Part shown: positions 1 through 18,170 of the stretch, piece by piece | Layout: each line of letters opens with the position of its first letter | How positions within the stretch are numbered: the stretch's first letter is position 1 | Assembly: GCF_030537745.1 (NCBI RefSeq) | Contig: NZ_JAUNVI010000014.1 | Location: 1 to 49,585, forward strand | Direction of reading: 5' to 3' | Source of the DNA: Ornithinimicrobium sp. | GTDB lineage: Bacteria > Actinomycetota > Actinomycetes > Actinomycetales > Dermatophilaceae | Length of the DNA stretch: 49,585 nucleotides | Translations under genes and position numbers: made by a program | The notes under the pieces: generated by a model | Databases searched by the model: none | The model's input: only the letters and a program-made list of their open reading frames with translations | What the model was told of the DNA's origin: nothing

Positions 1-627
<627 letters not shown>

Positions 628-673
628 AAACAACAAAGATGCTACGCGTCCACTGTACGGTCTCTCGACCTAC

Positions 674-713
674 GAACAACCCCCTCCCCCCCTTATACGG
701 GGAAGGCTTGTTC
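674..713 (+). other. Imperfect inverted repeat in the 23S-5S spacer (possible processing stem)
   Basis: gaacaa (674-679) pairs with ttgttc (708-713). Inside it cccc (686-689) can pair with gggg (699-702), giving an irregular hairpin within the roughly 100-base spacer. Spacer stems of this kind often serve as RNase processing sites in rRNA precursors; that role is inferred. No tRNA or other gene is visible in the spacer. Confidence 0.35.
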
Positions 714-728
714 AACAAGATCGACAAC

Positions 729-847
729 GTTACGGCGGTCATAGCGTCAGGGAAACGCCCGGCAACATTCCGAACCCGGAAGCTAAGCCTGACAGCGCCG
801 ATGGTACTGCACTGGAGACGGTGTGGGAGAGTAGGACACCGCCGGAC
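729..847 (+). rRNA. 5S ribosomal RNA
   Basis: About 119 nt with the actinobacterial 5S pattern. It begins gttacggcggtcatagcg, has the central block ccgaacccggaagctaagcc (768-787), and ends with gagtaggacaccgccggac. The 5' and 3' ends are complementary (helix I), which sets the boundaries to within a base or two. Confidence 0.95.
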
Positions 848-11497: not shown

Positions 11498-12687
11498 GGA
11501 TCCTCCTGGTGACCGGGCTCGTCGCCGGAGGTGTCGGGCAGCACGTGGCCATGCTGACTCGCGGACTCACCACCGCCGGGCACACCGTGGTGGTGGCTTG
11601 TCCGGACACGGTCGCCGCCCAGTTTGGTCTGTCCGACCTCGGTGCCAGACACGTGCGGCTGGAGGTCGGTGCCCGTCCACATCCACGGCGCGACAGAGCG
11701 GCCGTCGTCTGCCTCCGCGAGCTGTTGAGCGCGTGCGACGTCGTCCACGCTCATGGGCTGCGGGCCGGCGCGCTGGCCGCGCTCGCTCGAGCGGCAGGCA
11801 CGACGCCGCGCCTGGTGGTGACCAGCCACAACGGGCCTCCAGCCCTGGCTTCGCGAGGCACGAGTGGACCTTCTGTGTCCGGCGCGCTCGCGGCCCGTCT
11901 CCTCTATGGCCAGCTGGAGCGACTCGTCTGTCGCCGTGCCGATCTCCTCCTCGCGGTCTCACCGGACCTGCTCCAGAGAGCCCGTGCCAAGGGGGCCGAC
12001 GCCACAGCCCTGGCGATCGTGCCGGCCCCCCCGGCCCGTGTCCGCGATCGCTCGATCGCAAGAGCGGTGCTGGCGGCCGAGCTCGGCTTGGCTGGCAGTG
12101 ACCTCGTCGTGCTCAGCATCGGTCGCCTCGCTCCGCAGAAGCAGATGGGCGCACTGATCAGCGCCATGGTGCGGGTGGGCGCCGAGCAGGCAGGCAGCGA
12201 TGGACGACCGGTCCTTCTCATTGCGGGGGAGGGCCCGGATCGAGCGGCGCTGCAACGACGGCTGGATCTGCCCGAGACCGCAGACGCCCTCGACGCTCGT
12301 CTGCTCGGGCACCGCGAGGACGTGCCGGCTCTGCTGGCTGCCGTGGATGTGGTTGTCTCGGCAGCGCAGTGGGAAGGGCAGCCGGTGTGGTTGCAGGAGG
12401 CGCTCGCGAAGGGCGCGCCGATCGTGGCCACCGACGTTGGCGGGACGAGGCAGGTCGTCGGGGAGGCTGCGCTCCTGGTCCCGCCGATCCGGGGGGAAGA
12501 CGGTGAGAAGGTGCTGGCAGAGGCGATCGCGCAGGTCCTGGGCGATCCGACGTTGCGCTCCGACCTTCGCGGACAGGCGTTGCTTCGCGCCGCTCAGCTG
12601 CCGACAGAGGCTGACGCGATCACTGCCGCGGTGACGGCATACCGCTCTGGCGTGGCTGGTGACCAACCCACGGCTGCGGTCACGTAG
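11494..12687 (+). CDS. GT4-family glycosyltransferase
   Basis: 397 aa. ATG 11494 overlaps the flippase stop (ATGA). The open frame continues far upstream, but that part is antiparallel or out-of-frame to the flippase and is not coding. A GT-B fold is suggested by the N-terminal glycine loop (VTGLVAGGVGQHV, about 6-18), VLSIGRLAPQKQMGALI (about 206), LLIAGEGPDRAALQRR (about 240), and the donor-site block EGQPVWLQEALAKGAPIVA (Glu about 293 and 301). It is probably cytoplasmic or membrane-associated. With the two genes before it, it could add sugars to a polyprenyl-linked intermediate. Its stop codon region also serves as the -10 box of pyrG. Confidence 0.85.
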   Translation: MRILLVTGLVAGGVGQHVAMLTRGLTTAGHTVVVACPDTVAAQFGLSDLGARHVRLEVGARPHPRRDRAAVVCLRELLSACDVVHAHGLRAGALAALARAAGTTPRLVVTSHNGPPALASRGTSGPSVSGALAARLLYGQLERLVCRRADLLLAVSPDLLQRARAKGADATALAIVPAPPARVRDRSIARAVLAAELGLAGSDLVVLSIGRLAPQKQMGALISAMVRVGAEQAGSDGRPVLLIAGEGPDRAALQRRLDLPETADALDARLLGHREDVPALLAAVDVVVSAAQWEGQPVWLQEALAKGAPIVATDVGGTRQVVGEAALLVPPIRGEDGEKVLAEAIAQVLGDPTLRSDLRGQALLRAAQLPTEADAITAAVTAYRSGVAGDQPTAAVT

Positions 12688-15617: not shown

Positions 15618-16097
15618 ATGGAGATCGTCGTCCGCGCCGCGTTGATGTTCCTGTTCCTGTGGTCAGTGACCCGGGTCGTCGGTCGCTCGACCCTCGGCGA
15701 GCTCAGCTCTTTTCAGTTGATTCTCTTTATCACGATGGGTGACCTAGTGGGTCAGGCGATAGTCCAGCAGGATTACTCCTTCACCGCCGGCGCATTAGCC
15801 GTCGGCACCTTCGCCCTGCTCACGATCTTGATCGGGTGGATCAACTCGCGATGGCGCGGGTGGGCTCGGATCACGCACGGGGTGCCGGTGGTCGTCGTGC
15901 AGGACGGGGAGCTGCTGCTGGAAACCATGCGGAGGGAACGGCTAGGCCTCAACGACCTGCTCGCCGCGTCGCGTGGTCGAGGGATCGAGCGGGTGGGTGA
16001 CATCCGGGTGGCGGTGCTGGAGGCTAACGGACAGTTGTCGTTCTTCACGTCCGACCCTGGGGCTTCCGGTGCGAGCGAGCAGCCGCCCGTTGGCTAG
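15618..16097 (+). CDS. DUF421 (YetF-type) membrane protein
   Basis: 159 aa from ATG 15618. Three hydrophobic helices (about 3-80) include the family signature FLFLWSVTRVVGRSTLGELS and LILFITMGDLVGQAI. A small cytoplasmic alpha/beta domain (about 90-145) follows, with GVPVVVVQDGELLLETMRR and the characteristic RVGDIRVAVLEANGQLSFF. In Bacillus spores members of this family (YetF, YdfR-type) interact with SpoVA2Mob channel proteins or are of unknown function; here the role is unknown. It is slightly shorter than the 200-230 aa forms because it has a single copy of the C-terminal domain. Confidence 0.85.
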   Translation: MEIVVRAALMFLFLWSVTRVVGRSTLGELSSFQLILFITMGDLVGQAIVQQDYSFTAGALAVGTFALLTILIGWINSRWRGWARITHGVPVVVVQDGELLLETMRRERLGLNDLLAASRGRGIERVGDIRVAVLEANGQLSFFTSDPGASGASEQPPVG

Positions 16098-16117
16098 GGC
16101 CCAGAGGCTTGAGCCTG

Positions 16118-16123
16118 TAAACT
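16118..16123 (+). promoter_or_regulatory. -10 box (TAAACT) of the aspS T-box transcript
   Basis: TAAACT is followed 6 bases later by the first base (16130) of the T-box closing stem, so the RNA would start right at the structure. No convincing -35 hexamer is visible. The placement relative to the riboswitch is the main support. Confidence 0.6.
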
Positions 16124-16129
16124 GGGTAC

Positions 16130-16346
16130 GTGCGCAGGGGCGGGGTGACGACCCGCCAAGAGCTGATCGACATACCGACACCACAGCCCGACCTGCGCAC
16201 CGCGCGTCCAGCGGATCGACGAGAGGCTGAGGATCCCTCGGCAAAGGTGTGGTGGCACCGCGACCTAGCCCCCGCCCACACCTTGACGGGCTGCCTTCGC
16301 AGGGGGCAGACCGATCCTCTGCGGGACCGACCCGAGAGGACAGCCC
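16130..16346 (+). promoter_or_regulatory. T-box riboswitch upstream of aspS (tRNA-Asp sensing, probably translational)
   Basis: Stem I is closed by nine perfect pairs, gtgcgcagg (16130-16138) with cctgcgcac (16192-16200). It contains several GAC (Asp) triplets, the best specifier candidate being 16177-16179, and no AAC. The antiterminator/antisequestrator is textbook: helix A1 aaggtgtgg (16244-16252) with ccacacctt (16276-16284), the 7-nt bulge UGGCACC (16253-16259), and helix A2 gcg (16260-16262) with cgc (16273-16275). The UGGC bulge would pair with the tRNA end GCCA, that is G73, as in tRNA-Asp. Downstream, tcctct plus cggg (16315-16325) pairs with cccg plus agagga (16331-16340), hiding the Shine-Dalgarno site. 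An alternative gccccc (16268-16273)/gggggc (16302-16307) pairing would break helix A2. There is no U-run, so translational control is likely. Confidence 0.85.
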
Positions 16347-18170
16347 ATGCTTCGTACCCATAACGCCGGCACCCTGCGCCCCGCGCACGCCGGCACCACC
16401 GTCACCCTCACCGGCTGGGTGGCCCGCCGCCGCGACCACGGCGGCGTCGCCTTCATCGACCTGCGTGACGCCAGTGGTGTCGTCCAGGTCGTGGCCCGTG
16501 ACGAGGTCCTGACCGGGACCGCCCACGACCTGCGCAGCGAGTTCTGCGTGAAGGTCGTCGGTGAGGTCACCCCGCGCGCCGAGAAGGACGTCAACCCGGA
16601 CCTGCCCACGGGAGCCGTGGACGTGGTTGCCAGCCAGATCGAGGTGCTGTCCGGCTCCGACCCGTTGCCCTTCCAGATCGACGAGCGTGTCAGCGTCGGT
16701 GAGGAGACGCGCCTGCGCCACCGCTACCTCGACCTGCGTCGCCCAGGCGCCAGCTCGGCGGGGCAGAACCTGCGCCTGCGCTCCAAAGTCAACGCGGCCG
16801 CTCGCAACCTCCTCGCCGACCGCGACTTCGTCGAGATCGAGACGCCAACGCTCACCCGCTCCACGCCCGAGGGTGCCCGTGACTTCCTGGTCCCGGCACG
16901 CCTGCAGCCCGGCAGCTGGTACGCCCTCCCGCAGAGCCCGCAGCTGTTCAAGCAGCTGCTCATGGTCGCGGGGATGGAGCGCTACTACCAGATCGCGCGC
17001 TGCTACCGCGACGAGGACTTCCGTGCCGACCGGCAGCCGGAGTTCACCCAGCTCGACATCGAGATGAGTTTCGTCGAGCAGGACGACGTCATCGAGCTCG
17101 GCGAGGCGATCACGAAGGCGGTGTGGGCCGTTCAAGGGGTCGAGCTGACCACGCCCTTCCCTCGGATGACCTACGCCGAGGCGATGCGCCGCTACGGTTC
17201 TGACAAGCCGGACCTGCGATTCGACCTGGAGATCACCGAGTGCACCGACTTCTTCGCCCAGACCCCCTTCCGGGTGTTCCAGGCCGAGTACGTCGGCGCC
17301 GTCGTCATGCCCGGCGGCGGTTCGCAACCACGCCGCCAGTTCGACGCCTGGCAGGAGTGGGCCAAGCAGCGCGGCGCCAAGGGCCTGGCGTATGTCACCG
17401 TCGGGCAGGATGGCGAACTCGGCGGCCCGGTCGCCAAGAACCTGTCCGACGCGGAGCGGGCCGGACTGGCCGGACATGTCGATGCCCAGCCGGGTGACTG
17501 CGTCTTCTTCGCAGCTGGGCCGACCAAGGCCTCACGCGCACTCCTCGGCGCCGCCCGCCTGGAGATCGGCAGGCGCTGCGCTTTGATCGACGAGTCCGAC
17601 TGGAACTTCTTGTGGATCGTTGACGCGCCGCTGTTCGAGCCAGCTGGTGAGGCCGTCGCCGCTGGGGACGTGGCCGTCGGCTCGGGGGCGTGGACCGCTG
17701 TTCACCACGCCTTCACGTCACCGAAAGCAGAGTATGTCGACTCCCTCGAGTCCGACCCGGGCGCCGTGCTGGCCTACGCCTACGACTTGGTCTGCAACGG
17801 CAACGAGATCGGTGGCGGGTCCATCCGCATCCACCGCCGCGAACTCCAGGAGCGCGTCTTCGGGGTCATGGGGTTAACTGCCGAAGATGCGCAGGAAAAG
17901 TTCGGCTTTCTGCTCGAGGCGTTCAAGTTTGGTGCCCCGCCGCACGGCGGGATCGCGTTTGGGTGGGACCGCATCGTGGCCCTGCTCGCGGGCACCGACT
18001 CGATCCGCGACGTCATCGCCTTCCCCAAGACCGGTGGCGGCTTCGATCCGCTGACCGAGGCCCCGGCCCGCATCACCCCGGAGCAACGCAAGGAGGCCGG
18101 CATCGACGCCAAGGCGCTGGCCCAATCGGCGGACAAGCCCGCAGCCCAGGCGGACCCCGCAGTGCAGTAG
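16347..18170 (+). CDS. aspS: Aspartyl-tRNA synthetase
   Basis: 607 aa from ATG 16347, with agagga (16335-16340) as ribosome binding site. This class II synthetase has an OB-fold anticodon-binding domain (about 1-105, [20 protein letters not shown]), motif 1 near [20 protein letters not shown], motif 2 in [16 protein letters not shown] (about 218-233), a bacterial GAD insertion, and motif 3 in [15 protein letters not shown] (about 535-549). It charges tRNA-Asp. Many actinobacteria use a non-discriminating AspRS that also makes Asp-tRNA-Asn for GatCAB; sequence reading alone cannot settle this here. Expression is probably controlled by the T-box in its leader. Confidence 0.97.

Follow-up and report, generated by a model that had tools for sequence, protein, structure and literature searches.

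A probable tRNA-Asp-specific T-box riboswitch in the aspS leader of Ornithinimicrobium and its relatives

Introduction

Are the T-box riboswitches of Actinobacteria confined to ileS? The question is raised by a stretch of 49,585 nucleotides from an Ornithinimicrobium genome (hereafter the window), in which a preliminary description, made from the sequence alone, proposed a T-box with aspartate specificity in front of the aspartyl-tRNA synthetase gene aspS. In its accessible parts, PMC1262725 reports actinobacterial T-boxes solely before ileS and as probably translational; those of PMC2494555 repeat ileS for Actinobacteria, and those of PMC7583486 and PMC10651847 describe the ileS form. TBDB scanned Actinobacteria with a class II model of its own, and aspS goes unnamed in the accessible portion of that paper (PMC7778990). 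Our literature search, mostly among papers outside subscription, returned no report naming an actinobacterial aspS T-box, which agrees with the suggestion that this example may be undescribed; TBDB may list some.

Results

The aspS leader and its relatives

The leader is intergenic: the upstream open reading frame stops at 16097 and aspS begins at 16347.

16347 to 18170, + strand: aspS, a bacterial-type aspartyl-tRNA synthetase of 607 aa with an ATG start (NCBIfam PRK00476, 835 bits; TIGR00459, 691 bits)

The region 16098-16360 folds with a minimum free energy of -121.2 kcal/mol (z -3.16), better than all of 200 dinucleotide shuffles, and a search of 15950-16450 found no terminator-like site. 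A 23S rRNA gene ends in the left edge of the window (1-847), which also contains a 5S rRNA gene.

We surveyed 186 genomes of the GTDB family with a 22-mer core, allowing up to 3 mismatches, and retrieved 67 full-core leaders besides the window, 43 before aspS, where the T-box core and the surrounding helices are found again, and 24 before a gene whose product has about 440 residues. With the window, aspS leaders thus occur in 44 genomes and related leaders of the second kind in 24 more. All four of the 24 proteins that were scanned match best with PRK05159, aspartate--tRNA(Asn) ligase, which we take to be the archaeal-type AspRS; we name this gene aspS2. A PRK05159 search of ten genomes with aspS2 leaders gave a match above the model cut-off at the T-box site in every one. 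The core is matched exactly in 26 of the 31 genomes of the window's genus. Of the 80 named-genome aspS loci closest to the window's own, just the six nearest, from Ornithinimicrobium and Serinicoccus, have GGTGGNACCGC within 450 nt upstream (four loci, L038, L050, L051 and L061, covered less than 450 nt). Two aspS2 leaders, L169 and L170, have the core AAGGUGUGGUGGCACCGCGAYCU(A/G)GCCCCCGCCCACACCU in common with the aspS leaders, and the short aspS2 leaders, including L120, L134 and L188, show UGGCACA, not UGGCACC, in the T-box bulge and a four-pair A2 helix (GCGA/UCGC). The short motif GGTGGCACCGCG was dropped as a search query, being too common to discriminate, and partial-core matches (e.g. 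GAGGTGTGGAAGCACCGCGACC in L112-L114, L125, L126 and L191) were set aside because other open reading frames lie downstream.

Identity as a T-box

The preliminary description had proposed a search with the Rfam T-box model, and this failed on the window itself: RF00230 gave no match, whether the gathering score or E up to 10 was taken as the threshold. Since the leader itself is unmatched, the homologues were used as the test, in a scan of ten loci. RF00230 matches three aspS2 leaders, L170, L177 and L169, from model position 1 to 219 (E 5.9e-8, 5.9e-5 and 8.4e-4; 47.2, 35.5 and 31.1 bits), scores that are significant yet under the gathering cut-off of 93 bits, which is a model threshold and no biological property. 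No match at E up to 0.05 came from the other seven loci (four aspS, two short aspS2 and the genome's own ileS leader). In the family, 11 genomes have matches when E is allowed to reach 0.1, including G034, which holds one of the three aspS2 homologues. Ten further weak RF00230 matches (L202-L211; E 7e-5 to 0.03) were seen in family genomes.

With E up to 0.001 and strict filters, which lose weak matches, R1, a covariance model built from 43 aspS leaders, has matches in 23 genomes at the level of the order (396 searched) and in 5 at that of the class (148 searched). Among the leaders it finds are aspS2-type ones from other families and orders, absent from its training set, at E from 1.8e-4 to 1.3e-19, and all 17 matches outside the family stand before an aspS2-like gene, as judged by the protein start. 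All 27 T-box-bearing loci examined score between 39.8 and 145.4 bits, some of them being training sequences; in the controls, no score exceeds 10 bits before aspS in 15 family genomes devoid of an aspS T-box, or 15 bits in ten other named aspS loci (L008-L016, L033). One genome of another family, G298, has two T-boxes of equal score (L228, L237), both followed by an aspS2-type frame, of which that behind L228 has only 192 residues in the retrieved stretch.

Chance resemblance in a GC-rich leader might be suspected from the commonness of GGTGGCACCGCG alone, present in 146 of 149 family genomes, but the position, the full architecture, the covariation described below and the Rfam-significant homologues make it wholly improbable. 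The miss by Rfam, one of two signs that the preliminary description had taken as speaking against a T-box, did occur, whereas the other, a loss of the bulge, the A1 helix or the GAC specifier among homologues, did not.

Stem I, the specifier and Stem III

16118 to 16123, + strand: -10-like hexamer TAAACT; a transcript would start about 7 nt further on, where the closing stem lies
16130 to 16200, + strand: Stem I region, a closing stem (16130-16138 with 16192-16200) enclosing the specifier hairpin and a variable hairpin
16139 to 16157, + strand: specifier hairpin, GGCGG/CCGCC
16147 to 16149, + strand: GAC (Asp) specifier codon, in the hairpin loop
16158 to 16191, + strand: variable hairpin
16201 to 16221, + strand: candidate Stem IIA/B pseudoknot (16201-16203 with 16211-16213; 16205-16208 with 16218-16221)
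16226 to 16242, + strand: Stem III

In 42 of 43 leaders, a hexamer of the form TAnnnT starts 20-23 nt upstream of the specifier hairpin; of 308 control windows, only 4 contain it anywhere. This placement suggests a transcript start near 16130, although a promoter search found no sigma-70 consensus pair. L175, in which the pseudoknot motif was not found, was left out of this count, of the 43-row alignment and of the closing-stem and hairpin tests.

The nine-pair closing stem of the preliminary description is present, and seven of its nine pairs change on both sides among the leaders. A single-register count finds only 57.9% of cells paired, owing to a one-nucleotide shift of register in part of the genus. 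An arm-permutation test was used too: the arms bind their own partner with a mean of -14.0 kcal/mol, as against -10.0 when permuted among leaders, a value reached in none of 5000 permutations, which are uncorrected for relatedness like those for the downstream segments and the antisequestrator loop below. The own arm is the best partner in just 14 of 43 leaders. In Stem III, four of the five inner pairs change on both sides and about 97% of cells are paired. The alignment of related aspS leaders, also proposed in the preliminary description, thus shows both helices to covary.

By eye, Stem I (16130-16200) contains several GAC triplets and no AAC, in accordance with what had been reported, and the alignment narrows the choice of specifier, which had been left open, to 16147-16149. 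The loop shows UGAC in all 43 aligned aspS leaders and in L175, and the hairpin is located in 44 of 44 leaders by a pattern that itself requires TGAC. The loop follows the consensus NNUGAC(G/A)N (L156 has an additional base), and 96.7% of the hairpin cells are paired. Across the aspS leaders, neither the adjacent GAC (16150-16152) nor the remaining GAC triplets of Stem I are conserved. By eye, the aspS2 leaders with a short Stem I have the same UGAC loop; that of L170, L177 and L169 is GAAGACA. The genome's tRNA-Asp gene has anticodon GTC, discriminator G and no encoded CCA, so that UGGC in the bulge can pair with G73-CCA, as had been proposed.

The variable hairpin, between specifier hairpin and closing stem, differs greatly in length and sequence. 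It is weak in the window (-4.5 against -3.1 kcal/mol when shuffled) and absent or very short in two of 43 leaders (L118, L168); all 41 inserts of at least 14 nt fold below their shuffle mean, 34 of them at p 0.05 or better. This second hairpin inside the closing stem makes Stem I a three-way junction, a derived and unusual form, in which we observe by eye no class I specifier loop or kink-turn. Nor is a Stem II S-turn seen by eye, the variable hairpin being the only one at hand. The arms of the candidate IIA/B pseudoknot are paired in 94.8-100% of cells and nearly invariant in sequence, which leaves no room for a covariation signal; three aspS leaders (L146, L147, L162) carry an extra hairpin-like insert in its loop.

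We also observe that CGGCATACC occurs in the window at 12635, 14894, 29806 and 44427, four times where 0.30 are expected, a count that none of 100 shuffles reaches, and that GGCATACC recurs too in the variable hairpin of many aspS leaders. These are possibly a dispersed repeat or a protein site.

The antisequestrator and the Shine-Dalgarno region

16244 to 16284, + strand: antisequestrator, with A1 (16244-16252 with 16276-16284), UGGCACC (16253-16259) and A2 (16260-16262 with 16273-16275)
16287 to 16313, + strand: hairpin a:b (16287-16298 with 16302-16313), in the predicted fold
16298 to 16323, + strand: alternative hairpin b:c (16298-16305 with 16316-16323), which excludes c:d
16315 to 16340, + strand: hairpin c:d, masking the Shine-Dalgarno (SD) site

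The element described earlier as a complete antiterminator is found with the same helices and bulge. Its T-box sequence is invariant in all 43 aligned rows and its loop, CUGGCCCC, is unusually conserved; the outermost A1 pair occurs in only 7 of 43 leaders, so that A1 usually has eight pairs. The separate ten-pair SD hairpin exists as well (16315-16325 with 16331-16340, one base bulged), with the SD site AGAGGA at 16335-16340.

In the aspS2 leaders, the 3' strand of A1 can pair with GGAGGU, the SD. Forcing A1/A2 gives them a mean SD accessibility of 0.31, and blocking the 5' half one of 0.00; the two differ by more than 0.2 in 20 of 23 leaders (one of the 24, L119, was dropped as no SD was found there), and in the free ensemble without tRNA the probability of A1 averages 0.04 and exceeds 0.5 in one of 24. 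In these folding models, the aspS2 leaders are a classical translational switch, with the 3' strand of the antisequestrator masking the SD.

The aspS leaders behave differently. With the antisequestrator forced, SD accessibility is 0.36, as against 0.32 with the 5' half blocked (more than 0.2 apart in 5 of 44), and without tRNA the probability of A1 averages 0.67, exceeding 0.5 in 33 of 44 leaders and reaching 0.87 in the window. Near-equal accessibility and a high probability of A1 together indicate no evident competitor of the antisequestrator in these leaders; a search by free folding for a competitor of the A1 3' strand found none for the group, and although this strand could pair with the SD region, no covariation supports that pairing. 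Of the preliminary argument for translational control from the lack of a U-run, the absence of terminators stands; the mutual exclusion of on and off structures, which had been left open, is clear in the folding models of the aspS2 homologues.

The stretch that follows A1 at aspS, 60-94 nt including the start codon, can be divided into segments a (GGGCUGCC in most aspS leaders), b, c (anti-SD) and d (SD), for which the 44 leaders were reduced by similarity to 30 non-redundant ones. Among these, the arms of b:c covary (z -11.5; 0 of 10000 permutations as good), as do those of c:d (z -5.6; 0 of 10000). For a:b the signal is weak (z -1.8, with 345 of 10000 permutations as good), and there is none for a:c, a:d, b:d or for the A1 strand with d. 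In the window, b:c is not the predicted minimum. Since c is unable to pair with b and d together, the aspS leaders appear to hold a bistable element downstream of the antisequestrator, and it seems from these models that on/off exclusion at aspS runs through this separate element. Masking a raises the mean SD accessibility from 0.33 to 0.49 in the 30 leaders, by more than 0.2 in 15 of them, but the window shows a drop, from 0.20 to 0.01. In all 65 distinct combinations, the antisequestrator loop could pair with the segment after A1, at -7.0 kcal/mol or better, a complementarity with a that shows no covariation in this set.

The near-independence of aspS SD accessibility from A1 in the folding models, together with the unusual conservation of CUGGCCCC, would also fit a T-box acting on transcription, in which the C-rich stretch of the antisequestrator, free when uncharged tRNA is lacking, loads Rho or leads to a U-less terminator, the SD hairpin being constitutive. 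We consider this unlikely, as no terminator-like site is found, both c:d and b:c covary around the SD, and the aspS2 homologues look translational when folded. A T-box-derived element that has lost tRNA switching at aspS and now serves autogenous binding by AspRS, mRNA stability or a similar function would in turn explain why the aspS leaders as a group show no structure competing with A1; it is less probable still, because all 43 aligned rows retain UGGCACC, the GAC loop and A1, which fits continued reading of the tRNA.

Distribution of aspS, aspS2 and the T-box

Twenty-five genomes selected with their T-box state known were searched with PRK05159 at its curated cut-off. aspS2 is found above the cut-off in ten, the same ten that have a T-box at aspS2, and in none of the nine with an aspS T-box or the six with neither; the nine of these ten aspS2-T-box genomes that were examined upstream of aspS have no T-box there. 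Genus g28 contains both T-box states. In a tree of 58 partial AspRS sequences (L160, at a contig end, is absent), the aspS T-box label needs four changes as against 13.5 in shuffles, at least two of them forced by well-supported branches, indicating a distribution that is clustered yet patchy. The aspS start codon is ATG in 43 of 44 genomes with the T-box and GTG in all 15 family genomes examined without it, and GTG in 67 of the 74 loci L008-L081, also without it (counts uncorrected for relatedness). In the window's own genome, PRK05159 matches aspS and, more weakly, a protein of 513 residues (74 bits), with no third AsnRS-like match; Asn-tRNA may be made there by transamidation via AspRS.

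Discussion

Judging from sequence and its comparison, we put at about 80% the probability that the leader is a tRNA-Asp-specific T-box riboswitch controlling aspS translation. The aspartate specificity first proposed is borne out by the Rfam-recognised homologues, the covariation, the conserved GAC loop and G73 of tRNA-Asp. The GAC loop at 16147-16149 would read the GUC anticodon of tRNA-Asp and the UGGC bulge its uncharged G73-CCA end, stabilising the A1/A2 antisequestrator, and uncharged tRNA-Asp would thereby raise aspS translation. The element after A1 would be biased from a:b plus c:d, with the SD masked, to b:c, with the SD free, possibly because the antisequestrator loop (AGCCC/GGCCC) captures the complementary GGGCU in a.

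A fuller reading is tentative, and we give it slightly less than even odds: Stem I would have been rebuilt as a three-way junction, the tRNA signal of the antisequestrator would be relayed through four attenuator-like segments that decide whether the aspS SD is free, and the T-box would apparently have moved between the gene of an accessory archaeal-type AspRS and housekeeping aspS, its platform being rewired at aspS.

Compared with the actinobacterial ileS class II T-boxes, as described in the accessible parts of PMC1262725, PMC7583486 and PMC10651847, the aspS leader is alike in its T-box bulge and antisequestrator, its Stem III, a short Stem I whose specifier sits in a loop, and SD masking in place of a terminator. 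It differs in reading GAC and tRNA-Asp with UGGC, in enclosing the specifier and variable hairpins within a common closing stem, with no S-turn Stem II by eye, and in the separate bistable element around the SD. The window's genome carries a T-box leader before ileS as well, L200 (G000:C2:79050-79600), with core AGGTGGTACCGCGGT, a GCCGTCATCAGCGGC hairpin and AUC in the loop; RF00230 scores it at just 15.1 bits, and R1 gives no match to it at E up to 10. Set against class I (RF00230), three aspS2 homologues have the GAAGACA loop and match the model over its full length, whereas the window's leader is unmatched and has no terminator-like site.

According to PMC2494555, a T-box stands at one of the three aspS genes of C. 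acetobutylicum; by description, firmicute aspS T-boxes share the target enzyme. That paper treats T-boxes as anti-terminators, whereas here we see no terminator, and in the aspS2 relatives the SD appears to be masked. As far as could be seen, the Asp-specific T-box is novel in its Stem I form and its aspS platform, the type of system being already known.

These leaders extend the translational T-boxes of Actinobacteria from ileS to aspartate and reveal a group of T-boxes that the Rfam model overlooks. They also offer natural pairs, the simple sequestrator of aspS2 and the relay of aspS, in which one tRNA sensor is fitted to two platforms. The pattern suggests that, in part of the family, tRNA feedback acts on the supply of AspRS via whichever AspRS gene bears the switch.
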